From an uncultured Cellulomonas sp. (GTDB lineage Bacteria > Actinomycetota > Actinomycetes > Actinomycetales > Cellulomonadaceae), in assembly GCF_947494015.1 (NCBI RefSeq), contig NZ_CANLTL010000002.1, positions 62,001 to 126,000 of the forward strand: a stretch of DNA of 64,000 bases, given 5' to 3'. This document shows positions 20,154-53,436 of the stretch, piece by piece. A program made the translations under genes and the position numbers. Position 1 is the stretch's first letter, and each line of letters opens with the position of its first letter. The notes below the pieces were generated by a model. That model was not told the origin of the DNA and did not search any database. It saw nothing but the letters and a program-made list of their open reading frames with translations.

Positions 20154-21152
20154 ATGACAGCAGACGTCAGCGACACATCCGGGACCATGGCGGTGCCGCT
20201 GCCACTGGTGACACAGATCTACGTCGCGGACCCCTCGGCGCACGTGTTCGAGGGCCGGCTCTACGTGTACCCGTCGCACGACGTCGACGCCGACGTCCCC
20301 GAGGGCGACGACGGCGAGCACTTCGCCATGGAGGACTACCACGTCCTGTCGATGGACCGGCCGGGCTCGGCCGTGACCGACCACGGGGTGGCGCTGCACG
20401 TGGCGGACGTGCCGTGGGCCGAGCGTCAGATGTGGGCGCCGGACGCGGCGCGGTCCGGCGGCCGGTACTACCTGTACTTCCCGGCCAAGACGGCCGACGG
20501 CGTGTTCCGGATCGGCGTCGCGGTCGGCGACCGTCCCGAGGGCCCGTTCATCCCGGAGCCCGAGCCCATCCCCGGCGCCTACTCCATCGACCCGGCCGTC
20601 CTGGCCGACGACGACGGCGCGCACTACCTGTACTTCGGCGGCATCTGGGGTGGGCAGCTGCAGACCTACCGCGACAACGTCCCCGACCCGGCGCACCGCG
20701 AGCCGGCCGACGACGAGCCCGCGCTCGGTCCCCGGGTCGCCCGGCTGGACCCGGACATGCGCCACCTCGCCGAGAGCAGCCGCGAGGTGCTCATCGTCGA
20801 CGAGGACGGCATCCCGTTGCGGGCCGGCGACCACGACCGCCGCTTCTTCGAGGGACCGTGGGTGCACCGGCACGGCGGGCGGTACCACCTGTCCTGGTCG
20901 ACCGGTGACACCCACCTCATCTGCTACGGCACGAGCGACAGCCCGTACGGGCCGTTCACCTACGTCGGCCAGGTGCTCACGCCCGTCAGCGGGTGGACCA
21001 CGCAGCACTCGATCGTCGAGCACGAGGGCCGCTGGTACCTGTTCTTCCACGACTCGTCGCGGTCCGGGGGTCGCACCCACCTGCGCACCGTCAAGGTGGT
21101 CGAGCTCGAGCACGACGCCGACGGCCGGATCCGGACCGTCCACCCGGACTAA
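20154..21152 (+). CDS. Glycoside hydrolase family 43 protein
   Basis: 332 aa beta-propeller glycosidase. The likely catalytic trio is Asp26 in VADPSAH, Asp146 in YSIDPAVL and Glu233 in FFEGPW. YPSHD and QMWAPDA match the xylosidase-like GH43 branch. No signal peptide is visible, so the protein is probably cytoplasmic, trimming oligosaccharides brought in by ABC transporters. The ATG at 20154 has an AGAGGTG ribosome site, and TACCGT at 20115-20120 is a plausible -10. Its stop overlaps the stop of the convergent regulator gene by four bases. Confidence 0.88.
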   Translation: MTADVSDTSGTMAVPLPLVTQIYVADPSAHVFEGRLYVYPSHDVDADVPEGDDGEHFAMEDYHVLSMDRPGSAVTDHGVALHVADVPWAERQMWAPDAARSGGRYYLYFPAKTADGVFRIGVAVGDRPEGPFIPEPEPIPGAYSIDPAVLADDDGAHYLYFGGIWGGQLQTYRDNVPDPAHREPADDEPALGPRVARLDPDMRHLAESSREVLIVDEDGIPLRAGDHDRRFFEGPWVHRHGGRYHLSWSTGDTHLICYGTSDSPYGPFTYVGQVLTPVSGWTTQHSIVEHEGRWYLFFHDSSRSGGRTHLRTVKVVELEHDADGRIRTVHPD

Positions 21153-39626: not shown

Positions 39627-40343
39627 TCAGCCCACGGTCGACGACGCCGCCGACCCGCCCAGCAGCCAGTCCACCTCGCGGCGCAGCAGCTCTCGCCGCG
39701 ACGGGCTCGCGTAGGAGCGGACGTCGTGCCCCAGTCCGTCGTAGACGACCCGCGGTCCGCCGGCCGAGACCCAGGCGACCGGGTGCTGCCGACCCTCGTG
39801 CTCGGTCGCGGCCAGGACCCGACTGCTCGGCGCCACCTCCAGGTCGCAGTAGCGCTCGTCGTACGCCTCGACGTCGGTCAGCCCCGACGTCGCCGGGTGT
39901 CCGGAGTCGACGACCCGGAACGTCGCCGGTCCGATCGGCGGGTGCCTCGACGTCCCGACCACCCAGCGTCCCCCGAGCAGCTGCGCCCAGTGCGGGGAGT
40001 CGGCGAACGTGTTGGCCGCCTGGTGCAGCGCCAGCAGCGGCACGCCGGCGGCGACGAGCCCGGCCAGGGTGTCGTGGAACGGCCGCCACGAGGTGTCGTC
40101 GCCGTCCCAGTCCGGGTCCGCGCGACCGCGCCCGGCGCAGACCACGACGAGGGCGAGGTCGGTCGGTCCGGCGCCCCCGAGCGCGTCGCGGGACGTGCCC
40201 CGCACCCGCACCGGCACGCCGCGCTGGTCCAGCGTGCCCGCCAGCGCGCCGATCACCGCGTGCGCGGTCGCGGCGTCGTCGTGCCACGGGTCCTGGTACC
40301 GGCCGCGGCCGACCAGCACCAGGGCGGCGTCAGGCACGGTCAC
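39627..40343 (-). CDS. ThuA-like domain protein
   Basis: 238 aa with a class-I-glutamine-amidotransferase-like fold. LLALHQAANTF carries the family's central His-containing turn, and PIGPATFRVVDSGHPATSG and RVVYDGLGHD match ThuA domain blocks. ThuA proteins act with sugar-oxidising dehydrogenases (in Agrobacterium, trehalose/keto-sugar metabolism), and their enzymatic role is still debated. Last gene of the glycan operon, overlapping the DUF2264 gene by 14 bp, so its role is probably in processing the imported sugar. GTG start at 40343. Confidence 0.85.
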   Translation of the reverse strand: MTVPDAALVLVGRGRYQDPWHDDAATAHAVIGALAGTLDQRGVPVRVRGTSRDALGGAGPTDLALVVVCAGRGRADPDWDGDDTSWRPFHDTLAGLVAAGVPLLALHQAANTFADSPHWAQLLGGRWVVGTSRHPPIGPATFRVVDSGHPATSGLTDVEAYDERYCDLEVAPSSRVLAATEHEGRQHPVAWVSAGGPRVVYDGLGHDVRSYASPSRRELLRREVDWLLGGSAASSTVG

Positions 40344-42336
40344 CGCCGACCGGGAGCAGCACCTCGGTGTGGGCGCCGTCGGCCCACACGACCGTCGCCC
40401 GGGGCGCGCCGGCCGTCGCGACGTCGACCCGCGGCTCGGCGCCGCGGTCCCCCACCGGCCGCTCGGCGCCCGGTCCGGACAGGCCGACCACGGCGACCGC
40501 CCAGGCGTCGGTCGGCACCGGTCCGGCCACCCACGGGGTGCCCGCGACCGCGCCCAGCGGTGAGGCGTCGGTCGACCGGGTGACGCCCGCGCGGTCGAGC
40601 CCGGCCCGGCCGGTCACGACCGAGATCAGGTCGGGCGTGCGGACCACGGCGGTGGACCCGGCCACGTCCTCGTCGGGCGCGGTGGTGCCGGCCAGCGGCC
40701 AGCCGCCGATCCGCAGCGACCGCGCGGCGGCGGCCGCCGTCCCGGCGTGGACGAGGCGGACCTCCCATGCCCCGCGGACCACCGACACCGTGGTGAGGAC
40801 GCCGGCGTCGGTGGGCACCCCGGGCAGACCGGAGCCGTGACGACGCCCGGACTCGTCCGCGGCCAGCCAGTGCGCGCGCGCCCGCGACGCGGCGACGCCG
40901 ACGGCGCGGGGACCGACGCCGTCCGTACGGTCGCCGACCGGGGCGACGTCGAGCACCTGCATGCCGGTGCGGTGGCTCGCGCGGCCGGCGTCGTCCAGGA
41001 GGACCACCGACTGGTCCAGCGGGTCGGTCCAGGCGGCGTCGTCGAGCAGGGGCGAGGTCGCGGTGGAGTAGCCGAGCCGGGCGTACAGCGGCGAGTCGCC
41101 GCCCGCCGCCCCCGGGACGGCGTGGTCGGTGCCGTGGTTGACGACGCGCACGACGCCGTCGTCCCGCGTCCCGGCGACGACCCAACCGGCGGCCCGGACC
41201 ACCCGGAGCCGGTCACCGGTCTCCAGCGGCAGCGGCTCCTCGACGGCCGTCCACACCGGGTGGTCGGCGGGCAGCGCGAGGCCGAGCATCCCCTTGCTCG
41301 CCCAGTACGGGGACCCCGTCCCCGAGTAGGACTGCGCCAGCCGGGGCCACTCGTGGTGCCAGCCGAGGGTGAGCAGCCCGCGCTCGTCGGGCGCGCCGCG
41401 GTCGGCGAAGTGCCGCACGACGCCGGACGCCGCGCGGCGCAGCTGGCCGGGCGGTACCGACGGCACGCCGGCCATGGCCCCGGCCCAGAACGGCGCCGCG
41501 GCGGCGAACCGGTAGACGAGGCTGCGCCCCTGCAGCAGCGGCGACCCGTCGGCGCCGACCAGCTCGACGGCGTCCTGCAGGTACCGGTCCAGCCGCGCGA
41601 CGTCGACGTCGCGACGCTCGGGGGCGAGGTCGGCGGCGCCCGCCATCCGGGACCACAGCACCGGGTACAGGTGCAGGGCCCAGCCGGCGTAGTGGTCGTA
41701 GGAGCGCTCGTCGCCGTCGGCCAGCCAGCCGTCCGCGCGGACGAAGGAGTCGTGCGTGGTCAGGTCCGCCCGCATCTCGTCGAGCTGGTGCGGGCCGCCC
41801 ACCGAGCGCAGGAACGTCTGCACGACCAGCCGGAACCACACCCAGTTGATGCGCGGGTAGGTGTCGTCGCCGACCGCGGCCGCGAGGTAGTCCACCACCC
41901 GCTCCTGCACCACCGGGTCCAGCCCGTCCCACAGCCACGGCCGGGTCAGGTCGAGGATCAGCGCGATCGACGCCGCCTCCACCTTGGCCTGCGCGTGCTC
42001 CTCGAGCCGCACCCACCGGTCCGGCGCCGCGGGGTCGGTCCCGGCGCTCAGCCCGGCGGCGTACCACTCCGCGAGGTGGCCGGGGTCGGCGCCGCCCTCG
42101 CCCGCCAGCCGGAAGCCGGCCAGCAGGAACGTCCGGGCGAAGCCCTCCAGGCCGTCGACCGCGGCCCCGTAGCCGCCGGTCGGCCCGGGCAGCGTGAGCA
42201 GCGCGTGCCCCGGCGAGGCGAACGGGCGCACGGCGGCCAGCATCCGGTCGGCGAGCGCCGCCCAGTCGCCCCGCTCCCAGCCGGTCAGCGGGGACAGGCG
42301 GGTGCCGGTGCGCGCGCCGGTCAGGGGCCGGCTCAT
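40330..42336 (-). CDS. DUF2264 protein (predicted helical-barrel glycan enzyme)
   Basis: 668 aa. The N-terminal half has the DUF2264 pattern: PGPTGGYGAAVDGLEGFART, YPRINWVWFRLVVQTFLR and DGDERSYDHYAGWALHL, with abundant aromatic residues and an (alpha/alpha)-barrel look. The C-terminal half is beta-rich. It likely acts on an oligosaccharide, possibly as a lyase or hydrolase; no catalytic residue can be assigned with certainty. It lies in the operon with a hydroxyacid dehydrogenase (4-bp overlap) and a ThuA protein (14-bp overlap). No signal peptide. Confidence 0.8.
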   Translation of the reverse strand: MSRPLTGARTGTRLSPLTGWERGDWAALADRMLAAVRPFASPGHALLTLPGPTGGYGAAVDGLEGFARTFLLAGFRLAGEGGADPGHLAEWYAAGLSAGTDPAAPDRWVRLEEHAQAKVEAASIALILDLTRPWLWDGLDPVVQERVVDYLAAAVGDDTYPRINWVWFRLVVQTFLRSVGGPHQLDEMRADLTTHDSFVRADGWLADGDERSYDHYAGWALHLYPVLWSRMAGAADLAPERRDVDVARLDRYLQDAVELVGADGSPLLQGRSLVYRFAAAAPFWAGAMAGVPSVPPGQLRRAASGVVRHFADRGAPDERGLLTLGWHHEWPRLAQSYSGTGSPYWASKGMLGLALPADHPVWTAVEEPLPLETGDRLRVVRAAGWVVAGTRDDGVVRVVNHGTDHAVPGAAGGDSPLYARLGYSTATSPLLDDAAWTDPLDQSVVLLDDAGRASHRTGMQVLDVAPVGDRTDGVGPRAVGVAASRARAHWLAADESGRRHGSGLPGVPTDAGVLTTVSVVRGAWEVRLVHAGTAAAAARSLRIGGWPLAGTTAPDEDVAGSTAVVRTPDLISVVTGRAGLDRAGVTRSTDASPLGAVAGTPWVAGPVPTDAWAVAVVGLSGPGAERPVGDRGAEPRVDVATAGAPRATVVWADGAHTEVLLPVGGDRA

Positions 42337-43439
42337 GCGCTGACCGTGAACGCGTCGGGGGTGACCGGGGTGGACAGCGCCCGCCCCTGCAGGACGTTCT
42401 CGAGCTCGTCGATCGCGTGGTCGCTCATGCGCCGGGTCTCCGCGCCGAGCGAGCCGGCGATGTGGGGGGTGATCATGACGTTGGGCAGGTCCAGCAGGGG
42501 CGAGGTGGCCGGCAGCGGCTCGGGCTCGGTGACGTCGAGGATCGCGTGCAGCCGTCCCGACCCGCACTCGCGCAGCAGCGCGTCGTGGTCGACCAGGGAC
42601 CCTCGCGCGGTGTTGACGACGGTCGCGCCGTCCGGCAGCAGCGCGAGCTCGCGGCCGCCGATCATGTGCCGGGTCTCGGCGAGCGCCGGCGCGTGCAGGG
42701 ACAGGATGTCGCTGCGGCGCAGGACGTCGTCCAGCGGCACCAGCACCCCACCGGCCGCCGCGACCTCGGCCGGGTCGGCGTACGGGTCGCTGACCAGCAC
42801 CGCGGCGGTGTCCAGGATCCGCAGCAGCTCCACCACGCGTCGTCCGATCCGGCTGAACCCGACGACGCCGATCGTGCGGCCGCGGTTCGACAGGTCGCGG
42901 CGGACGAGGCCGGCCGCCCACCCGTCCCGCTCGTGGCGGGCTCGGGCGGCCAGGAACGGCGCCTTCTTGCCGGCCATGATGATCGCGGCCAGCGTGTACT
43001 CGGCGACCGGCACCGCGTTCTCCTCGGCGGCGCTGCTGACGGCGATCCCGCGCCGCCACACCTCGTCCCCCACCAGGCCACGCACGCTGCCGGCGCAGTG
43101 CAGCACGGCCCGCAGGCGCGGAGCCGCGTCCAGCCGCTCCACCGTGAGCCCGGGCGCCCCCCAGGAGGTGATCAGCACGTCCGTGCGGGCGAGGCGGTCG
43201 CGGGCGGCCGGTGAGTCGAGCTCGTCGACCCACACCGGGTCGCCGAGCCGGACCAGGCCGCCGAGCCGCTGCAGCTGCTCGGCGCCGAACTGCAGCGCGT
43301 AGGTGGCGGCGTCCATCACCAGCAGCGCCTCGGCGCGGGGGGCAGCGCGGTCGGTAGTGCGGTCGGTGGTGCGGTCGGCGGTGCGGTCGGTGGTGCGGTC
43401 GGCGGTGCGGGTCGCACCGTGCGGGTCAGCGGCGTCCAC
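42333..43439 (-). CDS. D-2-hydroxyacid dehydrogenase with a Thr-Asp-Arg repeat tail at its N-terminus
   Basis: 368 aa. The cofactor-binding GFSRIGRRVVELLRI lies at about 180, and the catalytic Arg and Glu of the family at VNTARGSLVDHDAL and DVTEPEPLP, with the His in TPHIAGSLG. It should interconvert a 2-hydroxy and a 2-keto acid. The first 40 residues are built from TTDR/TADR repeats encoded by a 12-bp tandem repeat. A good GGAGG ribosome site before the GTG at 43439 supports this extension. An ATG at 43316 would omit it. Part of the glycan operon. Confidence 0.87.
   Translation of the reverse strand: MDAADPHGATRTADRTTDRTADRTTDRTTDRAAPRAEALLVMDAATYALQFGAEQLQRLGGLVRLGDPVWVDELDSPAARDRLARTDVLITSWGAPGLTVERLDAAPRLRAVLHCAGSVRGLVGDEVWRRGIAVSSAAEENAVPVAEYTLAAIIMAGKKAPFLAARARHERDGWAAGLVRRDLSNRGRTIGVVGFSRIGRRVVELLRILDTAAVLVSDPYADPAEVAAAGGVLVPLDDVLRRSDILSLHAPALAETRHMIGGRELALLPDGATVVNTARGSLVDHDALLRECGSGRLHAILDVTEPEPLPATSPLLDLPNVMITPHIAGSLGAETRRMSDHAIDELENVLQGRALSTPVTPDAFTVSA
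43347..43406. repeat. 12-bp tandem repeat inside the hydroxyacid dehydrogenase gene
   Basis: Five units of GCGGTCGGYRGT lie back to back at 43347-43406. On the minus strand they encode repeated Thr-Thr-Asp-Arg or Thr-Ala-Asp-Arg. Being a multiple of three, gain or loss of units would change protein length without a frameshift. Confidence 0.85.
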
Positions 43440-45183
43440 GAGCGCCTCCCAGGGTCGGGTCGGTCGCTGCTGCGGCGACGGGGTCGATCGCCGGCCCGGG
43501 ACGGTGCACCCCGCGTGGCCGGAAGCCGAGCTCGCCGGACAGGTCGAGCAGGTCGGCCGCGTACCAGAGGGTCGCGAGCCACATCTCGGTGCCCTGCAGG
43601 CCGACGCCGTCCGGGTGGTCGGGGCCGGGCAGCGCGGACGTCGTGAAGGCGAAGCCGCCGCCGTCCGCCCAGCGGTCGACGATGCGGACGGCGTGGTCGC
43701 GGGCGACCGCCTGGATCTCGGGCCACCGGTACCCGCGGTCGTGCTGCGTGAGCCACCACAGGGGGTGCACCAGGTCCAGCACGTCGCACGCCGACGCCCG
43801 GCCCGGTCCGTAGACGCGCGGGTCGGCTGAGTGCCGCAGCAGCGCGTCCACCACGACCCGGTGGTCGGGCAGCGCCACTCCCCACTGCGCGAACGTGCCG
43901 CGGACCGTCCGGTAGAACCCGTTCACCGGCAGCCGCAGGCCGTCCGCGCCGGGCCGGCCCCACAGCCCGGTGGCCGGGTCGCGGTGCACGAGCAGCCAGC
44001 CGAGCAGGGCCTCGACGGCGCCGCGCGGCACGGGGCGGCCGGCCCGCAGCTCCCAGGTCAGCGCGGTGCCGATCGCGTCGACCCGGTGCCCGGCACCCCA
44101 CGCGTCGCGGTCCAGGTCGAGCGACGCCAGGGTCCGCACGACGGCGTCGGGGGTGAGGTCGGCGACCGGGGCCAACGGGACCGGCCACGGCGCGCCGAGC
44201 AGGTCCAGGGCGTAGCCGACCGCGAGCACGTGGTACGACGACGCGTCGTCCGCGAACGGGCCGGGCTCGACCGTGGGCTCGACCGTGGGAGCTGCCTCGG
44301 TGCGGCCCGCCAGCTCGGGGACCATCCCGTCGGTGCGGGACTGCAGCGCACCGAGTGCGGCGACATGCTCCGCCCGTGACCACGGGGCGGGCGGCTGCCC
44401 GGTGAGCAGGTCGGCGATCTCGACGGCGTCGCAGTGCGCCCGGACGGTCGCCGGCTCCCCGGGCCGGTCGACCCACCGTCCGGTGCGCTCGTCCAGGCCG
44501 CGGGCGAGCAGCCCGACGACGTCGGCGCGGGCCCGGGCGCCGAGGTCGCGCAGCCGGCCGGCGATCGCCTGGTCCTCGCTGGGCGCGGCAGCGGTCCTGC
44601 GCCGGTCCCGCATGACCCGGGCCGGGTTGCCGACCGCGACCGCCCACGCGGGCACGTCGCGGGTCACGACCGCGCCCGCACCGACGACGGCGTGGTCCCC
44701 CACGTGGACGCCGTCGAGCACGACGACGTGGCTGCCGATCCAGACGTCGTCGCCCACGGTGACCCCGACGGAGGTGAGCGGCTGCTCACGGATGGGCGTC
44801 GCGGTGTCGGCGAACCCGTGGTCGAAGCCCAGCAGGCTGCTGTGGCTGCCGATGCGGACGCCATCGCCGATCGTGACGCGCCCCCGCACCGCCGTCCCGA
44901 CGTTGACCGAGCAGTCGGCACCGATCCGCAGGTCCCCGGTCAGGTGCGCGTGGGCCGCGACGGTGCTCCGGTCGCCGAGCGTCAGCGTGTCGGGGTGGAC
45001 GGCGGCCAGCCGGGAGACGACGCACCCGTCCCCGACGGCGTGGCCGCGGGCGCGCAGCTCGTCGAGGTGCGCGGCCATGTCCTGGCGGGCCGCCGGTGTG
45101 GCGAGCTGGGCGAAGGACCACGGCGCGAAGTCCTCGCGCAGGGCGATCCCGTCGCCCGCGGGCGCGACGACGTCGTGGGTCAC
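43426..45183 (-). CDS. Hexapeptide-repeat acyltransferase fused to a helical domain
   Basis: 585 aa. Residues about 60-190 are a left-handed beta-helix with hexapeptide repeats (LTLGDRSTVAAHAHLTGDL, VTIGDGVRIGSHSSLLG) and the acetyltransferase-type GDDVWIGSHVVVLDGVHVG and GNPARVMRD. The remaining about 380 residues are helical with repeated aromatic motifs (VLDLVHPLWWLTQHDRGYRW, GFAFTTSALPGPDHPDG) suggesting an alpha/alpha toroid or barrel. A fused acyltransferase in a sugar-catabolic operon is unusual. GTG start at 45183. The C-terminus overlaps the dehydrogenase gene by 14 bp. Confidence 0.72.
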   Translation of the reverse strand: MTHDVVAPAGDGIALREDFAPWSFAQLATPAARQDMAAHLDELRARGHAVGDGCVVSRLAAVHPDTLTLGDRSTVAAHAHLTGDLRIGADCSVNVGTAVRGRVTIGDGVRIGSHSSLLGFDHGFADTATPIREQPLTSVGVTVGDDVWIGSHVVVLDGVHVGDHAVVGAGAVVTRDVPAWAVAVGNPARVMRDRRRTAAAPSEDQAIAGRLRDLGARARADVVGLLARGLDERTGRWVDRPGEPATVRAHCDAVEIADLLTGQPPAPWSRAEHVAALGALQSRTDGMVPELAGRTEAAPTVEPTVEPGPFADDASSYHVLAVGYALDLLGAPWPVPLAPVADLTPDAVVRTLASLDLDRDAWGAGHRVDAIGTALTWELRAGRPVPRGAVEALLGWLLVHRDPATGLWGRPGADGLRLPVNGFYRTVRGTFAQWGVALPDHRVVVDALLRHSADPRVYGPGRASACDVLDLVHPLWWLTQHDRGYRWPEIQAVARDHAVRIVDRWADGGGFAFTTSALPGPDHPDGVGLQGTEMWLATLWYAADLLDLSGELGFRPRGVHRPGPAIDPVAAAATDPTLGGARGRR

Positions 45184-45308
45184 GGCAGCCGTTCCTCTCA
45201 GGGTGGGAGCGTGTGCACACCGGGTCGGGTGGGCACGCGCCGGGCGGCCGGCGGTCGGGCCGCCGGGCGTGGGTCGGTGTCGGACGGGCGGAGACAGAGG
45301 TCGCGGGG

Positions 45309-45986
45309 TCAGGCGGCGACGGGCTCGCCGGTCCCGACGGCCAGCACCGGCCGCAGGGCGAACCGGCTGTTGGCCCAGACCACGTAGAGCAGCGGTGCCG
45401 CGGCGAGCCCGAGACCGAGCGCCGGACGGCTGCCGACCATCGTGACCAGCAGCCCGAGCACGACCAGCGACGCCCCGGACAGGTACCACCGGCGCACGGC
45501 CAGGTACAGCGCCGCCCGCAGCAGGTCGCGCAGCCGCAGGTCGGTGCGCTCGACCAGGCCGACCAGGGCGAGCGTGGCGGTGGCCGCGGCGAGCGCCGCG
45601 AGCACGACGAAGACGGGGATGGCCACGGCCCCGAGGCGGCTGCCCCACACCGCGCGCACGTCCACCCCGAGGACGACGACGGCAGCCGTCGCCAGTGCCC
45701 CGACCGCCAGGGACGCCCGCAACCGGCCGCGCCACGCCCGGGCGAAGGTGCGCACGACGCTCGTCGTGCCGTCCGAGGAGAAGGCCGCGAACACCGTGAA
45801 GGCACCGACGAGCGCCGGCGCGCACCCCGGAGCCAGCAGCGCGAGCAGCGGCCAGGTGGTCGCCGGGTCCGTCGTGACCACCAGGACCACGACCGGCAGG
45901 CACGCGACGGCGAGCAGCAGGTTCGTCATGAGGATCACGTAGGCGGTGCCGAACACCCCGTCGTACGTCTCGTGGCTGACGCGCAC
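45309..45986 (-). CDS. DUF624 family membrane protein
   Basis: 225 aa with about five membrane segments and the family motifs near DGVFGTAYVILMTNLLLAVACLP. DUF624 (YetL-like) proteins are membrane partners of carbohydrate ABC systems and their role is unknown. Start: the GTG at 45986 has AAGGGG eight bases upstream; a GTG at 45995 overlapping the permease stop is an alternative. It sits in the operon with two permeases and the acyltransferase. Confidence 0.8.
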   Translation of the reverse strand: MRVSHETYDGVFGTAYVILMTNLLLAVACLPVVVLVVTTDPATTWPLLALLAPGCAPALVGAFTVFAAFSSDGTTSVVRTFARAWRGRLRASLAVGALATAAVVVLGVDVRAVWGSRLGAVAIPVFVVLAALAAATATLALVGLVERTDLRLRDLLRAALYLAVRRWYLSGASLVVLGLLVTMVGSRPALGLGLAAAPLLYVVWANSRFALRPVLAVGTGEPVAA

Positions 45987-45991
45987 AACGC

Positions 45992-46912
45992 TCACCCCTT
46001 CATCCCGCTCGTGGCGATGCCCTGGATGAAGTACCGCTGCCCGAGCAGGAAGATGATCGCGATCGGCAGCACGGACAGCACCGACCCCGTCATGATCAGC
46101 GCGTACTCGGCGTTGTACTGGCCGATGAAGCTCTTCAGGCCGATCTGGATCGTCCACAGCTCGGGGCTGCGCAGGTAGATGAGCGGGCCGAGGTAGTCGT
46201 TCCAGACGAACACGAAGGTGAGCAGGGCCAGGCTGGCGAGCGCCGGGACCGACAGCGGCAGCATGATCCGCCGGTAGATGCCGTACTCGGTGAGCCCGTC
46301 GACCCGGGCGGCCTCGCTGAGCTCGCCGGGGATGGTCTCGTAGAACTGCTTCATGAGGAACACGCCGAACGCGCTGAACGCCTGCAGGGCGACGATCGCC
46401 CACAGCGTGTTGGACAGCCCCAGCTTCGACATGAGGATGAACTGCGGGATCATGTACGCCTGCCACGGCACGGCGATGGTCCCGACGTAGACCAGGAACA
46501 GCACGTCGCGGCCCGGGAAGCGCACCTTGGAGAATCCGTACGCCGCGAAGCTCCCGGTGAACAGCTGCAGCGCGGTGATCACCGCGGACAGCAGCATCGT
46601 GTTCTTGATCCACGTGCCCATGTCGGACTTGCGCCAGATCTCGAGGTAGTTCTGCCACCGGGCGTCCTCGGGCAGCCACTGGATCGGGATCGTGAAGACG
46701 GCGTTGTTCGTCTTCAGCGACGACGTCACCATCCAGAAGAAGGGCAGCAGCACGGCGGCGGCGGCGACCACGAGCACGAGGTACCCGAGGACCCGCCCGA
46801 CGGTGCTCACCGGCCGCCGGGGTGCGCGTCGCTCGCGCACCGGCCCGCCGCTCGCACCGCCCAGCGCCTTGCCCCGCGTGACGGCCTGGGCGTTGGCGGA
46901 CGTGGTGGTCAC
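45992..46912 (-). CDS. Carbohydrate ABC transporter permease (MalG-like)
   Basis: 306 aa. Six membrane segments after a basic N-terminus, with the EAA cytoplasmic loop LSEAARVDGLTEYGIYRRIMLPLSVPAL that docks the ATPase. The ATPase gene itself is not in the cluster and may be a shared MsmK/MalK-type protein elsewhere. The GTG at 46912 overlaps the last base of the preceding permease's TAG. Together with the MalF-like permease and the binding protein it imports a sugar. Confidence 0.93.
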   Translation of the reverse strand: MTTTSANAQAVTRGKALGGASGGPVRERRAPRRPVSTVGRVLGYLVLVVAAAAVLLPFFWMVTSSLKTNNAVFTIPIQWLPEDARWQNYLEIWRKSDMGTWIKNTMLLSAVITALQLFTGSFAAYGFSKVRFPGRDVLFLVYVGTIAVPWQAYMIPQFILMSKLGLSNTLWAIVALQAFSAFGVFLMKQFYETIPGELSEAARVDGLTEYGIYRRIMLPLSVPALASLALLTFVFVWNDYLGPLIYLRSPELWTIQIGLKSFIGQYNAEYALIMTGSVLSVLPIAIIFLLGQRYFIQGIATSGMKG

Positions 46913-47817
46913 TACAGAGCCCTTCTCTTGTTCACGACGAACTGCACGACGGTGACCGAGATGCAGATCAGGAACAGCACCACGGACACGCTCGAGGCGT
47001 ACCCGAAGTCGTTCTCGACGAAGCCCTGGTCGTAGATGTACTGGGACAGCACGAGCGTCGAGGTCCCCGGGCCACCGTTGGTCATCACGAGGATGATGTC
47101 GAAGACCTTGAAGCTGCCGATCGTGAGCATCACGGTGACGAAGAACGTCGTGGGACGCAGGCACGGCAGGGTGACGTTCCAGAACCGCTGCCAGGCGTTG
47201 GCGGCGTCCATCCGGGCGGCCTCGTACAGCTCCGTCGGGATGGTCTGCAGACCGGCCAGGAACAGCAGCATGTAGTAGCCCATGTCGCGCCACACGCTGA
47301 CCAGGACGACGGCCGGCATCGACCAGTCCGCCGACGTCGTCCAGCCGGGCGGGTCGTCGATCCCGATGGTCCTCAGCAGGTGGTTGATCGGGCCGACGTC
47401 GGGGCTGTAGAGCGCGTTCCACACGAACGCGATCGCGACGATCGACGTCACGTAGGGGAAGAACGCCGCCGTCCGGAAGAACGCGACGCCGCGCAGCTTG
47501 CGGTTGAGCAGCAGCGCGAGGCCGAGCGACACCGCGAACGTCAGCGGGATGTGCAGCGCCGAGTAGTACAGCGTGTTGCGCAGCGACGTCCAGAACCGGG
47601 CGTCGCCGAGCATCTCGCGGAAGTTCTCGACGCCGACCCAGCCCGCCGACCCGAACGCGTTCCAGTCGGTGAACGACAGGTAGAACAGCACGATCACCGG
47701 GACCAGCGTCAGCGTCGCGAACCCCAGGAAGTTGGGCAGGATGAAGGACAGCCCCAGGAGGGTGTTGCGCCGCTTGAGGCGGCTACCCGGGCGTCTGGCC
47801 TCGAGCGTGGTGGCCAT
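46912..47817 (-). CDS. Carbohydrate ABC transporter permease (MalF-like)
   Basis: 301 aa with six membrane segments and the EAA loop LYEAARMDAANAWQRFWNVTLPCL. Belongs to the MalF/UgpA family of sugar importers. A GGAGACACGC site precedes the ATG at 47817. It follows the solute-binding protein by 80 bp and is directly coupled to the MalG-like permease, forming the core of the transporter. Confidence 0.93.
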   Translation of the reverse strand: MATTLEARRPGSRLKRRNTLLGLSFILPNFLGFATLTLVPVIVLFYLSFTDWNAFGSAGWVGVENFREMLGDARFWTSLRNTLYYSALHIPLTFAVSLGLALLLNRKLRGVAFFRTAAFFPYVTSIVAIAFVWNALYSPDVGPINHLLRTIGIDDPPGWTTSADWSMPAVVLVSVWRDMGYYMLLFLAGLQTIPTELYEAARMDAANAWQRFWNVTLPCLRPTTFFVTVMLTIGSFKVFDIILVMTNGGPGTSTLVLSQYIYDQGFVENDFGYASSVSVVLFLICISVTVVQFVVNKRRAL

Positions 47818-47897
47818 GCGTGTCTCCAGTCGTGGGTGGGGTCCGGCGGGCGATGCGTCGCACGCCGGACCCCGCGCCGGTCGGTGACCGTGGATGG

Positions 47898-49208
47898 TCA
47901 GCCGAGCTCGCTCGTCGCCTCGGACTCCGCGGCGGCCAGCCCGTCCTCGACGCTCGAGCTGCCGGACATGATCGCCGAGTGCGCATCGCCCAGGGCTCCC
48001 TGGACGGCGGCGGTGTGCTCCGAGACCGGGTTCTCCGGACGGGTGTCGTGCGTCCCGAACGCGTACTTCGACAGCTCGTCGGTGGGCACGCCCTCGATGC
48101 CGAAGTACGCCTCGGTGACGGCGTCGCTGGAGTAGGCCGGGGTGATGCCGATCGAGGCCAGCGCCTGCGCCGCCTCCTCGCTGCCGATGAACGACAGGAA
48201 CTCCTTGGCCGCGGCCTGCTCGTCCTCGTCGATCGCCGGGTTGATGCCGATGCCGGTCGGGTCGCCGAAGGTGACCGGGTCGTCCCCGGTGCACTCGAGC
48301 TGCGGCGCCGGGGCGATCCCCCAGGCGAAGGTGTCCGCGTCGCCGCTCTCCTGCTGGGCGAGCAGGGTGGCCACGTACCAGCTGCCCATCGGCATCATGG
48401 CGGCCTTCTGGGTCCCGAACTGCGACTGGTAGGTGAGGCTGTTCGTGCTCACGGTGCCGTAGTCGATCTGGGCGCCGCTGTCCTGCAGGTCCAGCGAGCG
48501 CTCGTAGTACGGCGCGAGGTAGTCGTACTCGCCGCCCAGGATGTCGGCGTCCGGGCTCTGGGCGTTGGCGAAGCCCTGCACGGTCGACTGCCAGGTGTGC
48601 TGGTAGGTGCCCTTGGCGTCCGACCCCGTGGCCGCGAGCGCTGTCGTCAGGTCCTTGGCCTTCTGCGCGTACTCGTCCCAGGTCCAGCACTCGCCGGGCT
48701 CCTCGACGCCGGCCGCCGTGAACAGGTCCTTGTTGTAGTAGACGTACCAGGAGTCCTGCCGGTACGGGACGGCGTAGGTCGTGCCGTCCACCTCGTAGGC
48801 GTCCAGGCCGTTGGTGTTCTCGTCCAGCGAGCCGGCGACGTCGGAGACGTCCATGAGCTGGCCGCCGTCCTGGTAGGTGAAGAAGTTCAGCAGGTTCTTG
48901 AGCACGTACATGTCCGGCGCCGACCCCGCGGCGAGGTCCGCGATCATCTGCGTGTCGTAGTTGGTGGCGTCGTACTCGTTGACCTCCACCGTGACGTCCG
49001 GGTTCTGCTCGTGGAACGCGTCGGCGAGCACCTGGAACTCCGGCGTCGTGGACAGGCTCCACCCCGCCAACGAGATCGTGACCGGCTCGTCCGAGCCCCC
49101 GCCGCCACCGGCGGCCGGGTCCGTCCCGGTGTCGTCGCCGCCGCAGGCCGTCAGGGTCAGCGAGACGAGTGCGGCGACGCTCAGGCCACCGACGATCGAG
49201 CGCTTCAT
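47898..49208 (-). CDS. Extracellular solute-binding protein (sugar ABC transporter lipoprotein)
   Basis: 436 aa. A lipoprotein signal (MKRSIVGGLSVAALVSLTLTACGG, lipobox LTAC) is followed by a two-lobed binding fold with YYNKDLFTAAGVEEP and PMGSWYVATLLAQQESG. Family 1/MalE-type carbohydrate-binding protein, anchored outside the membrane. AAGGAG precedes the ATG at 49208. First gene of the leftward operon, with the binding-protein promoter region (49209-49533) shared with the divergent heparinase-like gene. Confidence 0.93.
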   Translation of the reverse strand: MKRSIVGGLSVAALVSLTLTACGGDDTGTDPAAGGGGGSDEPVTISLAGWSLSTTPEFQVLADAFHEQNPDVTVEVNEYDATNYDTQMIADLAAGSAPDMYVLKNLLNFFTYQDGGQLMDVSDVAGSLDENTNGLDAYEVDGTTYAVPYRQDSWYVYYNKDLFTAAGVEEPGECWTWDEYAQKAKDLTTALAATGSDAKGTYQHTWQSTVQGFANAQSPDADILGGEYDYLAPYYERSLDLQDSGAQIDYGTVSTNSLTYQSQFGTQKAAMMPMGSWYVATLLAQQESGDADTFAWGIAPAPQLECTGDDPVTFGDPTGIGINPAIDEDEQAAAKEFLSFIGSEEAAQALASIGITPAYSSDAVTEAYFGIEGVPTDELSKYAFGTHDTRPENPVSEHTAAVQGALGDAHSAIMSGSSSVEDGLAAAESEATSELG

Positions 49209-49533
49209 GTTCTGCTCCTTGTAGGACTGGGGCCCGCCGTCGGGCCCGGGTCGGTCCGGCGGACCGGATCGGTGTCTGAGCTGTGCTGTGTCCGTCGCGG
49301 GCACCTCGGTGAGCCCGTCGGGGGCCGCTCCTGCCTTCCCCGTCGACGTCGTGCCGAACGACCCACTCGCGGACTGAGCGACAGTGATCGAATCCGTCCG
49401 CAGCATTGCGATTGCCGTGATCGTTCGTGGCTGTCGTGGAGTCAACTCGCGCCACCGACCGATGTCAAGAGGCTAACCGAACTGTTACGATCAATATCGA
49501 TCACGACAGGCGGATCCGGCTCGACGAGGAGAC
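49209..49533. promoter_or_regulatory. Divergent regulatory region of the glycan-uptake system
   Basis: Four GTGATCG-type motifs lie between the two operons: forward at 49384-49390 and 49417-49423, reverse at 49488-49493 (TGATCG core) and 49498-49504. The right pair is spaced about one helical turn, and the left pair about three turns. CAATAT near 49492-49497 may be the -10 of the rightward operon. The stretch is AT-richer than its surroundings. The likely binder is the regulator encoded at 51456. Confidence 0.5.
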
Positions 49534-51459
49534 ATGACGACTTCCCCTGCGTTCGACGGTCCGCTCACCCGCGCCTGGCACGCGGCCGTGACGGCGGCCG
49601 GGCACGACCCGGCGTCGGCGCCGCTCACGGGTGGGCTGCCCGTGCCGACCGCCGAGGACCGCTCGGTCTGGGACCTCGCAGCCGGGACCGCTGACATCCC
49701 CACCCGGCACGAGCTGCTGGCGCGGGCCGGGGCCGAGCGCGGGACGCCGTGGCCGCAGCCCACCGCCCACGCCTTCGCGCGGTTCTTCCGTGACGGCGAC
49801 CGCCTCGAGTACGAGGGCACGGTCGCCGCGCGGCAGCAGCGGCTCACCCGGGCCGCGGTGGCGGCGGCCTCCACCCTCGACCCGGCGTGGCTCGACGACG
49901 TCGCCGACGGCGTGACGCTCCTGTGCGAGCAGAGCACCTGGTGCTGGGCCGCCCACGACGACACCCGCCGCCGGCACGGGTCCGTGGTGCCGACCGTGAC
50001 CGACCCGTTCGTCGACCTCGGCGCCGGGGAGGTCGTCGCCCAGCTCGCGTGGGTGGACCACCTGCTCGGGGCCCGGCTCGACGACCGCTACCCCGGCCTG
50101 CGCCGGCGCGTGCGCCACGAGGCCAGGGTCCGGGTGCTCGAGCCGTTCGTCCGCCGTCGCGACTGGCACTGGCTCGGGCTCGACGGCGACGTCCACAACT
50201 GGAACCCGTGGATCCACGGCAACGTCCTGGTCGCCGCCCTCGGGCTGCTGGCGGACGACTCCGAGCGTGCGGACGTCGTCCGACTCGTGGTCGAGGGCCT
50301 CGACCGCTACGTCGCGGTGCTGCCCGACGACGGCGCGGTCGACGAGGGGTACGCGTACTGGTGGAACGGTGCGTGCCGCGCACTGGAGGCGCTCGACGTG
50401 CTGGGCCACGCGAGCGGGCACCGGATCGCGTCCCGTGTCCCGGCCCTGCGCGCGACCGTCGCGTTCCCGCACCGGATGCACCTGGGCGCGGACTGGTACC
50501 TCAACCTGGCCGACGGGCAGGCCCGGCCGCCGTCGGACCAGCCCTGGCACGCGCTGCACCGCGCCGCCCAGGAGGCGGGCGACCAGGACGCGCGCCGGCA
50601 CGCCGCGGCGCACCGCGTGCCCGGCGGGCCGGTCGCGACCGAGCGGGAGGGCCTGGGCCGGCTATTGCGCTCCCTGACCGACCGGGCGTGGTCGGCGGCG
50701 GACCCCGCGGCCGGCTCCCCGCTCCCCCGTGACACGTGGCTGCCGTCGACCGAGGTGCTCGTGGCACGCGCCACCGAGGGCAGCACCCACGGCCTGACGC
50801 TGGCCGTCAAGGGCGGCCACAACGGCGAGCACCACAACCACAACGACGTGGGCAGCGTCGTGGTGGCGCTCGGCGGCGTCCCGGTCGTCGTCGACGCCGG
50901 CCGGCCCACCTACACCGCGCAGACCTTCGGGCCCGACCGGTACGAGCTGTGGACCATGCAGAGCCAGTGGCACACCGTGCCGACCGTGCGCGGCACGGGC
51001 CAGTCGCCGGGCCGCCGGTTCGGTGCCCGGCACACCGTCGCCGAGGTCACCGGCGCCCGGGCGGCGCTCCACCTGGACCTCGCGGGCGCCTACGACCGGC
51101 CGGACGTGCGGCACTGGTGGCGGACCGCGGGGCTGGACCGCACGTCGGGCGCCGTGACCATCGAGGACCGCTGGGACCTCGCCCCCGACCCGACCCCGGC
51201 GCCGTCGTCCTGCGTGCACGTGCTGCTCGCGGGGGACGTCGTGCTGGACGGCCGGCGTGCCGTGGTGACCGCGCTCGCGGGGGCCGGGACCGTCGCGCTG
51301 ACGTGGGCGGGCACCGCCCGCGGCGCGCACCTGGAGATCCGGCGGCTGGACGACCCTATGCTCGGCGAGGTCTGGGGCGAGCGCCTCACCCGCCTCGTGA
51401 TCGACGTCGGCGACGCACCGACGGGCAGCCTGACCATGACCGTGGGGGAGATCCGATGA
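49534..51459 (+). CDS. Heparinase II/III-like family protein
   Basis: 641 aa. N-terminal (alpha/alpha) toroid with RDWHWLGLDGDVHNWNPWIHGN and DEGYAYWWNGACRALEAL, then a beta-sandwich containing KGGHNGEHHNHNDVGS, the signature of heparinase II/III-like proteins. In related lyases the Asn/His residues in these blocks and a Tyr act in catalysis. It probably cleaves a uronate-containing oligosaccharide; the exact substrate is not predictable. No signal peptide is visible, so it acts inside the cell. GAGGAG precedes the ATG. Coupled (ATGA) to the regulator gene. Confidence 0.83.
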   Translation: MTTSPAFDGPLTRAWHAAVTAAGHDPASAPLTGGLPVPTAEDRSVWDLAAGTADIPTRHELLARAGAERGTPWPQPTAHAFARFFRDGDRLEYEGTVAARQQRLTRAAVAAASTLDPAWLDDVADGVTLLCEQSTWCWAAHDDTRRRHGSVVPTVTDPFVDLGAGEVVAQLAWVDHLLGARLDDRYPGLRRRVRHEARVRVLEPFVRRRDWHWLGLDGDVHNWNPWIHGNVLVAALGLLADDSERADVVRLVVEGLDRYVAVLPDDGAVDEGYAYWWNGACRALEALDVLGHASGHRIASRVPALRATVAFPHRMHLGADWYLNLADGQARPPSDQPWHALHRAAQEAGDQDARRHAAAHRVPGGPVATEREGLGRLLRSLTDRAWSAADPAAGSPLPRDTWLPSTEVLVARATEGSTHGLTLAVKGGHNGEHHNHNDVGSVVVALGGVPVVVDAGRPTYTAQTFGPDRYELWTMQSQWHTVPTVRGTGQSPGRRFGARHTVAEVTGARAALHLDLAGAYDRPDVRHWWRTAGLDRTSGAVTIEDRWDLAPDPTPAPSSCVHVLLAGDVVLDGRRAVVTALAGAGTVALTWAGTARGAHLEIRRLDDPMLGEVWGERLTRLVIDVGDAPTGSLTMTVGEIR

Positions 51460-52607
51460 GCACGATCGACGCGCGCGGCCCGCTGCCGGTGACCCGCCGC
51501 GCCCAGCTGCTCGAGGAGCTCCAGCGGCAGGGCACGGTGCGGGTCTCCGAGCTGACGGACGTGCTCGGGGTCACGCCCGTGACGGTGCGGCGCGACATCG
51601 CCCAGCTGGCCAACGAGGGCCTGGTCCGCCGGGTCCACGGCGGCGCCACCCTCGTGACGGCGGACGACCGCCCGCAGGACGGGGCCGCGCCGGACGCCGC
51701 CCCGCCGGCCGGGGTCCCGAGGGCGGCCCCCGGCGGCGAGGTCGCGCTGCGCCCGGTCGGGATGCTGGTCCCCTCGCTGGACTACTACTGGCCCGGCGTG
51801 GTGCGCGGCGCGCAGGAGGAGGCGACCGCCCACGGGATGCGGCTGGTCCTGCGCGGGTCGTCGTACGAGACGCACGACGACCGTCCCCAGCTGGCGCGGC
51901 TGGTCGAGCAGGCCGCGGTCGACGGCCTGGTCATCGCCCCGCGGATGGACGTGCCCAACGCACCCGAGACGATGGCGTGGCTGGTGTCCACCGGGGTGCC
52001 CGTCGTCCTGGTCGAGCGGTCCGCCACGGTGGGCCTGCACCACGCCGCCGTGGAGTCGGTCGTGTCCGACCACGCGCTGGGGGCCGCCATGGCGGTACGC
52101 CACCTGGCCTCGCTGGGGCACCGCAAGGTCGGCCTCGTCCTGAGCGAGCACAGCCCGACCGGTCCGCACGTGCGGCGCGGGTGGCTGGAGGCGATCGGCG
52201 AGTCGGGGGCCGACGCCGCCACCACGGTCGACGTCGTGGTGCCGAACCTGAGGTCGGCGGACTTCGACGCGGCGCTGGACGCGGCGCTCGACCGGTGCCT
52301 GAGCACGGGCACCACCGGGCTCCTCGTCCACGCGGACACCGAGGCGATGGCGTTCGTGCAGCGCTGCGAGCAGCGCGGGCTGTCCGTGCCGGCCGACCTG
52401 TCCGTGGTGGCCTACGACGACGAGGTCGCGGGCCTGTTCAGTCCCCAGCTCACCGCGGTGCGCCCGCCCCGGCTGTCCATCGGACGGGCCGCAGTCTCCC
52501 TGCTGGCGGCGCGGCTGGCCGACCCCGAGCGGCCCGCGCACCGGGTGGTGATCAGTCCGTCGCTGCGCGTGCGGGAGTCGTCGGGACCGCCGCCGGCGGA
52601 GGGCTGA
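51456..52607 (+). CDS. DeoR-type HTH fused to a LacI-type sugar-sensing domain
   Basis: 383 aa. Residues 10-70 are a DeoR winged helix (RRAQLLEELQRQGTVRVSEL, VTPVTVRRDIAQLANEGLVRRVHGG). After a Pro/Ala linker, residues about 100-375 are a periplasmic-binding-protein-like sensor domain as in LacI/GalR (VGMLVPSLDYYWPGVVRGAQ, LVIAPRMDVP, VAYDDEVAGLFSPQLTAVRPP). The canonical LacI helix-turn-helix and hinge helix are absent. It likely senses a sugar from the glycan system and controls both operons through the GTGATCG sites. ATGA overlap with the heparinase gene. Confidence 0.85.
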   Translation: MSTIDARGPLPVTRRAQLLEELQRQGTVRVSELTDVLGVTPVTVRRDIAQLANEGLVRRVHGGATLVTADDRPQDGAAPDAAPPAGVPRAAPGGEVALRPVGMLVPSLDYYWPGVVRGAQEEATAHGMRLVLRGSSYETHDDRPQLARLVEQAAVDGLVIAPRMDVPNAPETMAWLVSTGVPVVLVERSATVGLHHAAVESVVSDHALGAAMAVRHLASLGHRKVGLVLSEHSPTGPHVRRGWLEAIGESGADAATTVDVVVPNLRSADFDAALDAALDRCLSTGTTGLLVHADTEAMAFVQRCEQRGLSVPADLSVVAYDDEVAGLFSPQLTAVRPPRLSIGRAAVSLLAARLADPERPAHRVVISPSLRVRESSGPPPAEG

Positions 52608-52662: not shown

Positions 52663-53385
52663 TCAGGCCGGGGACACGGGACTGATCACGAGCTCGTCGA
52701 CGCGGACCCAGGGCGGGGACTCCAGGACGAACCGCACAGCTCGACCGACGTCGTCGGGACGCAGCATCGTCGAGCGTGCAGTGTCGTCCGGGACGGTCGG
52801 GCGCAGGTCCAGGAACTCGGTGTCCACGTCGCCGGGGCACAGATGGCATGCCCGCACGCCGTGCCGGGCCTCCTGTGCGTTCAGCGTCTGGCACACCGCG
52901 CGCAGGGCGCTCTTGCTCGCGCTGTAGGCGACGCCCGCGTACGGCGTGAAGCGCCATGCGGACAGGGACGAGATCACGACGACCTGTCCGCCCGAGGCCC
53001 TCAGGTCGGCCAGCACCGTGTCCACCGCTCGCACGACCGCCGTGAGGTTGGTGGCGACGACGGCCTCGACCTCGGTCATCGACTGGTCCGCCCAGGTCCG
53101 TCGCGGGGTGTTGAGGCCGGCCGACAGCACGAGGTCGTCCACGCGTCCCCAGGCGGACGAGATCGCGTCGTGCGCGTGCGCGAGGGCGTCACCGTCGCGA
53201 GCGTCGAGCGGCAGGACCAGGGCCTGGCCACCGGCGCTCTCGACCAGCGCTGCGGTCTCCTGCAACGCGTCCACACGCCGTCCGCTGAGCGCGACCCGAC
53301 GGTCGGCCGCCGCGGCGACCGCGGCCGAGCGACCCATGCCGCTGCCGGCGCCGGTGACCCACAGGACGCGGGAGCCGGCCATCAT
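52663..53385 (-). CDS. SDR family NAD(P)-dependent oxidoreductase
   Basis: 240 aa from the ATG at 53385. Cofactor loop VTGAGSGMGRS, active-site YSASKSALRAV with Tyr and Lys, and a SAGLN segment in the NNAG position. Classical SDR of unknown substrate. Weak ribosome site; an ATG at 53382 and an upstream GTG at 53433 are alternatives. Convergent with the regulator gene of the glycan system, so probably not part of it. Confidence 0.85.
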   Translation of the reverse strand: MMAGSRVLWVTGAGSGMGRSAAVAAAADRRVALSGRRVDALQETAALVESAGGQALVLPLDARDGDALAHAHDAISSAWGRVDDLVLSAGLNTPRRTWADQSMTEVEAVVATNLTAVVRAVDTVLADLRASGGQVVVISSLSAWRFTPYAGVAYSASKSALRAVCQTLNAQEARHGVRACHLCPGDVDTEFLDLRPTVPDDTARSTMLRPDDVGRAVRFVLESPPWVRVDELVISPVSPA

Positions 53386-53436
53386 CGCCGTCCGGTGGGT
53401 CGTCCGTCCGCCGTCATGCTCCGACGCTGCCACAGC

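Follow-up and report, generated by a model that had tools for sequence, protein, structure and literature searches.

A PL33/DUF2264 uronate-glycan locus of actinobacteria in which GH88-Kdu genes are predicted to have been exchanged repeatedly for a 2-hydroxyacid dehydrogenase gene

Introduction

Several described systems resemble the locus reported here, a set of ten genes at positions 39627-52607 of a 64,000-nucleotide stretch of DNA (the window), which is contig C2:62001-126000 of genome G000 of an uncultured Cellulomonas sp. (4.28 Mb, 44 contigs, high GC). Like it, the yes/yte rhamnogalacturonan cluster of Bacillus subtilis has a CUT1-type importer and a DUF624 protein, YesL, and processes unsaturated uronyl sugars in the cytoplasm, but its lyases are others and it has GH105 rather than DUF2264 and dehydrogenase proteins. 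In the Bacteroides arabinogalactan-protein loci (BT3677; GH145 and GH105 of B. plebeius), rhamnose-glucuronate (Rha-GlcA) caps are eliminated before an unsaturated uronyl hydrolase acts, as in the breakdown of wine arabinogalactan protein by B. plebeius, where a GH105 enzyme follows (PMC8406133); the same two steps are predicted here, with lyases of other families and with a 2-hydroxyacid dehydrogenase that is absent from the accessible part of that account. The GH154 family, to which DUF2264 proteins were assigned, was proposed only in 2025 to consist of dehydratases, and the accessible sections of that study describe BcGDH and BT3677 as having dehydratase activity and no glycosidase architecture, with a chondroitin unit among the substrates of BcGDH and with the resulting delta-4,5-unsaturated uronate cleaved in turn by GH88 (J. 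Biol. Chem. 2025; PMC12269599). For the PL33 lyases, the substrates given in the available text are hyaluronan, heparosan, chondroitin and gellan (PMC11848413).

No published account of the actinobacterial arrangement described below, or of a 2-hydroxyacid dehydrogenase in this route, was found among the open-licence papers listed by the searches made. An earlier note on the window, made from the sequence alone, had proposed a system for the uptake and breakdown of a uronate-containing glycan and had remarked that no described locus with exactly this gene set was known to its author. Comparison with related loci identifies it, on the evidence of homology, as a PL33/GH154 uronate-glycan system with an ATP-binding cassette (ABC) importer, the GH88-Kdu part of which appears to have been exchanged repeatedly for the dehydrogenase.

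Results

Two versions of a recurring locus

Gene calls and Pfam matches place eight of the ten genes in a leftward operon of 9.58 kb that is divergent from a rightward operon of the other two (Table 1), in agreement with the gene identities, order, divergent layout and 9.6-kb leftward operon given in the earlier note. DUF2264 was found in 63 of 394 genomes of a class-wide sample; an order-wide sample of 396 genomes gave 61 with a PL33 homologue (E 1e-30). From these, 40 DUF2264 stretches (of 86 places listed) and 48 PL33 stretches were taken together with three named loci (Nocardioides, Rathayibacter and Microbacterium), and the resulting 91 loci and the window, 92 in all, were compared by tblastn with the window proteins and with extra genes of a related locus, L120. 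The loci were cut about 10 kb from the anchor gene, so that all fractions for gene presence are lower bounds. The unit that recurs comprises the regulator and PL33 genes, divergent from genes for DUF2264, the solute-binding protein (SBP), the permeases and DUF624; this synteny is conserved in many actinobacteria, and an arrangement whose core turns up in so many genomes is not a product of chance. Any claim to uniqueness falls on the same result, the core being widespread and all ten window gene types being present also in L163 (genome G500), which belongs to another family.

The tail of the L120 operon encodes GH88, a fumarylacetoacetate-hydrolase family (FAH) protein, a short-chain dehydrogenase/reductase (SDR), a KduI-family protein and a PfkB kinase, of which the GH88 protein matches the unsaturated glucuronyl hydrolase 1vd5 (E 9e-92) and the SDR is termed KduD-like from its position and appearance. 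Compared with the GH88/KduI-KduD-KdgK pathway, the genes of which sit in the same locus in relatives of the window (GH88 in 20 loci), the window locus has a dehydrogenase and a ThuA gene in their place, and no GH88 or Kdu gene was detected by Pfam among its ten genes. Among the 37 loci that share this importer, defined by a permease of at least 55% and a binding protein of at least 35% identity, 19 carry GH88, 16 carry the dehydrogenase, none carries both and two carry neither (Fisher p 1.2e-8, a value that ignores kinship); the last two, L158 and L183, are both on contigs of 10-11 kb. Over all 92 loci the corresponding numbers are 20, 35, 0 and 37. Within the PL33 loci assigned to a version, KduI was found in 12 of 20 GH88-type and KduD in 11 of 20, versus none of 23 dehydrogenase-type loci in either case, while ThuA was confined to the dehydrogenase type (7/23 versus 0/20).

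The history of the locus was followed on a tree of the permeases, binding protein and PL33 protein of 34 loci (five of 39 being left out for missing proteins). Three changes of version are needed on this tree, all forced by well-supported branches, and a switch of version at least three times is therefore forced on it; a tree of the permeases only needs five changes, two of them forced. Three independent pairs of loci differ in version, in opposite directions each time. The window clusters with the dehydrogenase-type loci L153 and L155 in a clade of 11 loci, the other eight of which are GH88-type, and this position among GH88-type relatives implies that the version probably changed while importer, lyase and regulator were retained.

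The PL33 lyase homologue and the DUF2264 protein

The heparinase II/III-like protein aligns with the PL33 lyase 8r75 over residues 35-637 of 641 and is, by homology, a member of the PL33 family. All five residues checked are kept (N222, Y275, H434, Y460 and F465, equivalent to N238, Y291, H444, Y470 and F475 of BtPL33), and the catalytic Asn, Tyr and His together with the tunnel Tyr/Phe are kept in 20/20 GH88-type and 17/17 dehydrogenase-type aligned sequences; among seven aligned sequences of neither type, one is gapped at two of the positions. The protein thus resembles BtPL33HA (BT4410; PNAS 2025, PMC11848413, from the accessible text) in its nearly full-length homology and in these residues, and differs from it in having no visible signal peptide, so that it is probably cytoplasmic and supplied by the ABC importer.

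The DUF2264 protein, for which the earlier note had suggested a lyase assay, is better read as a predicted uronate dehydratase, in view of its homology, fold and active-site residues. It matches the Bacteroides caccae glucuronate dehydratase (PDB 9o4u, E 1.8e-28) and keeps nine of the ten active-site residues mutated in BcGDH, including Y216, R271 and Y275, equivalents of Tyr, Arg and Tyr. The tenth, N176, is Ile in the window protein, at a position that is variable in all groups of the family sample. Across 42 aligned DUF2264 rows, seven of the nine kept residues are present in 42/42 and two in 41/42, the last row being gapped there. The AlphaFold2 model (predicted local distance difference test score, pLDDT, 92.8) consists of a helical toroid and a beta-domain, and a Foldseek search with it returned 8oi4, 9o4u and 9nwf at the top, followed by polysaccharide lyases including PL33. 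No residue tells GH88-type from dehydrogenase-type DUF2264 proteins at an 85% rule (15 versus 14 sequences), and there is consequently no sign of differing chemistry. With BcGDH and BT3677 the window protein shares fold, active site and, through the GH88 version, a tie to a later delta-4,5 uronyl hydrolase; besides the Ile at N176, it differs from BcGDH in an extra C-terminal beta-domain (668 versus about 400 aa), BT3677 being said in the accessible text to have a second domain (PMC12269599). The PL33 homologue and the DUF2264 protein of the window should each form, within the cytoplasm, delta-4,5-unsaturated uronyl oligosaccharides. The earlier proposals of glycan uptake and breakdown and of a uronate-containing target are supported.

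The D-2-hydroxyacid dehydrogenase

By alignment, the window dehydrogenase contains the motifs NTARG, PEP and TPH, which we take to hold the catalytic Arg, Glu and His positions; NTARG and TPH are found in 15/15 of the aligned sequences inspected and the Glu in 14/15. The gene occurs in 21 of the 40 DUF2264 loci and directly adjoins DUF2264 in 17 of them (adjacency judged by eye), including loci without PL33. Phosphoglycerate and glycerate dehydrogenases are the closest solved relatives, and a probable 2-ketogluconate reductase, 9m0t, is also related (E 7.8e-25), which brings sugar 2-keto acids within the range of the family and makes the earlier guess that the enzyme handles a keto acid a plausible one. 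Its function at this locus is inferred from sequence: D-2-hydroxyacid dehydrogenases act at the carbon beside the carboxylate, and 5-keto-4-deoxyuronate is proposed as substrate because that carbon is its keto carbon and because the family includes a 2-ketogluconate reductase.

In a further locus, L112:9302-15201, DUF2264 and dehydrogenase genes are directly beside a gene for a rhamnogalacturonan exolyase of PL26 type, and the stretch contains no L120-type GH88; the sole PF07470 match of that genome is in a different locus.

Genome-wide complement of uronate enzymes

The complement of uronate enzymes was compared between 18 genomes of the dehydrogenase type, G000 among them, and 16 of the GH88 type; G555, which is incomplete, was left out, as were the three named loci. 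Each genome carries the marker that defines its version by selection, and only the other figures are informative. PF07470 (GH88/GH105) is matched above cut-off in 2/18 dehydrogenase-type versus 16/16 GH88-type genomes, the match of G500 lying below the cut-off, and KduD-like proteins (E 1e-60) are present in 4/18 versus 16/16. Conversely, the dehydrogenase (E 1e-40) is found in 3/16 GH88-type versus 18/18 dehydrogenase-type genomes, two of the three adjoining a second DUF2264 gene. The family PF04962 mixes KduI with IolB, which its scores do not part cleanly; no match to it was found in 5/18 dehydrogenase-type genomes (G000, G558, G743, G700 and G141) versus 0/16 of the GH88 type. The window's genome, G000, thus has no PF04962 match, and it has no KduD-like protein at E 1e-60.

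A GH88 homologue is, however, encoded on contig C3 of the window's genome (L194:8933-10117); it matches PDB 1vd5 (E 3e-46), is 31% identical to the GH88 of L120, stands alone among unrelated-looking genes and could serve the window locus. With an unlinked GH88 at hand, the dehydrogenase may replace KduI/KduD rather than GH88. A cassette of DUF993, Gfo/Idh and isomerase genes was considered as the missing downstream route but is not supported, DUF993 being present in 15/18 dehydrogenase-type and 5/16 GH88-type genomes while the window's genome lacks it. Near four dehydrogenase-type loci (L199:5918-9224, L146, L154 and L184) a Gfo/Idh/MocA oxidoreductase gene adjoins DUF993, and three of these four cassettes also include a xylose-isomerase-like protein.

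A shared predicted operator

Operator counts were made on 34 divergent promoter regions (five of 39 loci, L182, L115, L146, L153 and L155, being unused). The hexamer CGATCA is present in 30/34 of these (shuffled mean 4.1) and the tandem CGATCA-N4-CGATCA, with at most two mismatches, in 29/34 (shuffled mean 0.6), figures to be read in the knowledge that the regions used for counting are those in which the motif was identified and that the shuffles preserved base composition only. The tandem operator is 39 times denser in the divergent regions than elsewhere in the loci and is found in both versions (15/19 GH88-type and 14/15 dehydrogenase-type), which accordingly both seem to answer to the same type of regulator.

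The window's genome contains 28 operator-like sites with at most one mismatch (control pattern, 0), three of them exact. The exact sites give no support to a wider regulon: one is that of the window locus, and the other two are amid genes that look like housekeeping genes from their first residues. Two operator-like matches 393 bp apart lie within a DUF222/HNH-type gene (window 13607-15106), and the same pair is present on contigs C3 and C10, while C4 has one such match at the contig end, so that this gene is probably a repeated element of the genome.

Indications of the target glycan

Proteins of the GH59 family are encoded in 7/20 GH88-type loci and GH30_2 proteins in 5/23 dehydrogenase-type loci; the two GH59 proteins inspected begin with a signal-like segment. 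As far as the accessible text goes, GH30 includes beta-1,6-galactanases and GH59 includes beta-galactosidases (PMC7889515). Contig C16 of the window's genome (L225:1-12837) holds genes for GH30_2, GH42, an importer, a LacI-type regulator and galK/galT-like proteins together (GH30_2 and GH42 from a Pfam scan, the remainder named from first residues) and is a probable galactan locus. The GH59 and GH30_2 neighbours, the C16 locus and the removal of Rha-GlcA caps in B. plebeius together suggest glucuronate (GlcA)-capped beta-1,6-galactan, as in arabinogalactan protein, as the favoured target, glycosaminoglycans being a less likely one.

The acyltransferase fusion

The acyltransferase fusion, listed in the earlier note as a member of the operon, is on present sequence comparisons an occasional passenger of the locus. 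In 77/80 loci that encode it, neither a PL33-type nor a DUF2264 gene was seen nearby (some flanks being short), although a dehydrogenase-like match is present in two of them, L005 and L067, and remote transporter matches in several. As a hallmark of the locus it was rejected, since only 3/80 (L006, L059 and L070) hold the remaining core and the largest cluster of shared neighbours comprises 15 loci; in the sampled PL33 loci it is found in 5/20 of the GH88 type and 2/23 of the dehydrogenase type. The fusion is common in Streptomyces, without a widely shared neighbourhood, and its nearest named matches are from Cellulomonas (66-67%). Its AlphaFold2 model (pLDDT 82.1) contains left-handed beta-helix strands and a barrel with weak resemblance to squalene-hopene cyclase and MmpH folds. 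The fold gives no support to the idea that the barrel is a further uronyl hydrolase, the top matches being squalene-hopene cyclases with weak scores and a large root-mean-square deviation. One may guess that the fusion acetylates a sugar intermediate. The fusion gene of Lacisediminihabitans (L067:9971-11668) has the dehydrogenase-like match (48%) on its upstream side, PL33 and DUF2264 not being seen nearby.

Gene layout and surroundings

In keeping with the earlier statement that most genes overlap or nearly touch, there are five overlaps of 1-14 bp (ThuA/DUF2264, 14 bp; DUF2264/dehydrogenase, DUF624/PermC and PL33/regulator, 4 bp each; PermC/PermB, 1 bp); three gaps are of 80 bp (SBP-PermB), 125 bp (DUF624-acyltransferase) and 109 bp (acyltransferase-dehydrogenase). 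The last of these assumes that the dehydrogenase starts at 43316, which is favoured by alignment of homologues over an earlier GTG at 43439 that would give 368 aa.

An SBP_bac_1 protein and two BPD_transp_1 permeases amount to a CUT1-type importer by Pfam composition. No ATPase is encoded among the ten genes according to Pfam, and a shared one from elsewhere is assumed. The N-terminal LTLTACGG of the SBP is lipobox-like, indicating by eye a lipoprotein-type start, while the PL33 homologue and the DUF2264, dehydrogenase, acyltransferase and ThuA proteins show, again by eye, no signal peptide; breakdown should hence come after import. The DUF624-type protein has no Pfam match of its own at E 1e-3 and is assigned through an L120 relative to which it is 48% identical, and a sequence search of the PDB at E 0.01 gave no relative of the ThuA protein.

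Table 1. Features of the window locus, with coordinates in the window.
Feature	Position	Strand	Basis and remarks
ThuA-family protein, 238 aa	39627..40343	-	PF06283 E 5.3e-21
DUF2264/former GH154 protein, 668 aa	40330..42336	-	PF10022 E 5.6e-110; predicted uronate dehydratase, lyase-like two-domain fold
D-2-hydroxyacid dehydrogenase family protein, 327 aa	42333..43316	-	PF02826 E 2.3e-44
12-bp tandem repeat, 5.3 copies	43347..43410	no strand	Tandem Repeats Finder (TRF); in the acyltransferase-dehydrogenase gap
Hexapeptide (left-handed beta-helix) acyltransferase fused to (alpha/alpha) barrel, 585 aa	43426..45183	-	PF00132 E 3.6e-17
DUF624-type membrane protein	45309..45995	-	via L120 relative matching PF04854 E 1.9e-7
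ABC importer permease 2 (PermC)	45992..46912	-	BPD_transp_1, PF00528 E 2.1e-16
ABC importer permease 1 (PermB)	46912..47817	-	BPD_transp_1, PF00528 E 1.6e-19
Solute-binding lipoprotein (SBP)	47898..49208	-	SBP_bac_1, PF01547 E 1.4e-30
Predicted second operator site	49375-49390		divergent promoter; 1 mismatch
Predicted operator CGATCA-N4-CGATCA	49488..49503	+	divergent promoter; exact match
PL33-family polysaccharide lyase homologue, 641 aa	49534..51459	+	PDB 8r75 (PL33) E 2.8e-75
Regulator, DeoR-type helix-turn-helix (HTH) and LacI-type sugar sensor	51456..52607	+	PF08220 E 1.3e-18, PF13377 E 8.3e-34

An SDR gene (window 52663-53433) is convergent with the regulator gene and, used as a marker, was matched in only 2/43 related loci (L121 and L144). 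Elsewhere in the window, a GH43 protein (20187-21152; PF04616 E 1.2e-27) is encoded apart from other sugar genes, and a GH120-type protein is encoded at the right end (61804-63771). Beyond the latter (L226:1-9190) are a GH43-like frame, an ABC importer and LacI-type regulators, all recognised by eye, and a GH51-type arabinofuranosidase domain, and the GH120/GH43/GH51 group is likely to be a cluster for xylan or arabinan oligosaccharides.

Discussion

The explanation that we favour, with somewhat more confidence than doubt, is that the locus serves the substrate-induced import and cytoplasmic breakdown of GlcA-bearing oligosaccharides, with GlcA-capped beta-1,6-galactooligosaccharides of arabinogalactan proteins as the likeliest ones, and that the dehydrogenase replaces KduI/KduD. 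The CUT1-type importer would bring in the oligosaccharides, from which PL33 would eliminate a sugar on O4 of GlcA, such as a rhamnose cap, and DUF2264 would take water from an uncapped terminal GlcA, the two steps converging on a delta-4,5-unsaturated uronyl oligosaccharide. Where GH88 is present, hydrolysis of this product would give 5-keto-4-deoxyuronate, to be processed by KduI, KduD and KdgK; in the window version hydrolysis would fall to the unlinked GH88 or to another enzyme, and the dehydrogenase would act on 5-keto-4-deoxyuronate, a 2-keto acid, in place of KduI/KduD. The regulator would repress both promoters through the CGATCA repeats until a breakdown product binds. It is proposed more tentatively, as a possibility short of a probable one, that DUF2264 and the dehydrogenase form an undescribed actinobacterial uronate route that replaces GH88-KduI-KduD and was swapped at least three times, the dehydrogenase reducing 5-keto-4-deoxyuronate or, on a bolder view, acting on the unsaturated uronyl oligosaccharide.

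Several observations weigh against this interpretation. Galactan enzymes lie near only a minority of the loci, and 37 of the 92 carry neither version marker. Only three switches are independent, giving a sign test p of 0.25, and three pairs cannot reach significance. In the dehydrogenase of L140 the usual Glu is replaced by Asp, and strong PF04962 matches, perhaps to IolB and not KduI, are found in 13/18 dehydrogenase-type genomes. Furthermore, one of the two dehydrogenase-type genomes with PF07470 above cut-off is the window's own, which has the homologue on C3 and, on C5, a second PF07470 protein that barely resembles the GH88 of L120; since PF07470 scores the C3 homologue at only 30 bits, similar proteins may escape detection elsewhere.

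With respect to the target, we think it rather unlikely that glycosaminoglycan- or gellan-type oligosaccharides are imported and that the dehydrogenase is a general reductase (of hydroxypyruvate or glyoxylate, for example) riding along. The substrates given for PL33 enzymes (PMC11848413, accessible part) and the action of BcGDH on a chondroitin unit (PMC12269599, likewise) agree with such a target, as does the kinship of the dehydrogenase to phosphoglycerate and glycerate dehydrogenases with a general reductase. Yet no hexosaminidase or sulfatase family was found among 30 Pfam-scanned proteins, taken from related loci, from other contigs of the window's genome and from the flanks of the locus in the window, whereas GH59 and GH30_2 are present, and a general reductase would leave the pairing of dehydrogenase and DUF2264, seen also without PL33, unexplained. 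The PL33 enzyme of Curtobacterium was inactive on the published substrate panel, according to the accessible part of that report (PMC11848413), a result that tells against glycosaminoglycans and also counts against the interpretation that we favour. Pectin, rhamnogalacturonan or exopolysaccharide, the first and last of which had been suggested earlier, would be the least likely targets of all: the DUF2264-dehydrogenase pair of L112 does adjoin a PL26-type exolyase, but that locus shows neither PL33 nor this importer, no pectinase family was found among the PL33-locus proteins chosen for Pfam, and the neighbouring enzymes point to beta-galactan.

With respect to the chemistry, DUF2264 might be a true glycosidase (a beta-glucuronidase or beta-galactosidase), as first reported for GH154, with glucuronate entering a uronate isomerase route and no unsaturated sugar being formed. 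This would account for the many DUF2264 loci without GH88, but seems quite improbable in the light of the dehydratases BcGDH and BT3677, which lack a glycosidase architecture (PMC12269599, accessible part), and of the nine of ten BcGDH-tested residues that are kept in the window protein, in both versions alike. At least as doubtful is a replacement of GH88 itself, whereby the dehydrogenase would reduce the hydrated 5-keto form of the unsaturated uronyl oligosaccharide so that the glycosidic bond falls apart; its exchange with GH88 within the locus and the lack of a PF07470 protein above cut-off in 16/18 dehydrogenase-type genomes are in keeping with this, and the unlinked GH88 homologue of the window's genome is not. 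Moreover, D-2-hydroxyacid dehydrogenases normally bind small open-chain 2-keto acids, and we know of no precedent for one replacing GH88.

If the dehydrogenase does replace KduI/KduD, as we favour, the locus bears on how actinobacteria handle unsaturated uronates. The known downstream step consists of GH88 or GH105 with KduI/KduD, and the recurrent pairing of DUF2264 with a dehydrogenase, exclusive with GH88 in a locus that is conserved in other respects, makes a second route directly testable. Such a route could give functions to many genes annotated just as DUF2264 or 'hydroxyacid dehydrogenase', and glucuronate-capped galactans become a candidate substrate class for actinobacterial PL33 enzymes. 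The repeated exchange of GH88-Kdu for the dehydrogenase hints at an undescribed route for these sugars.

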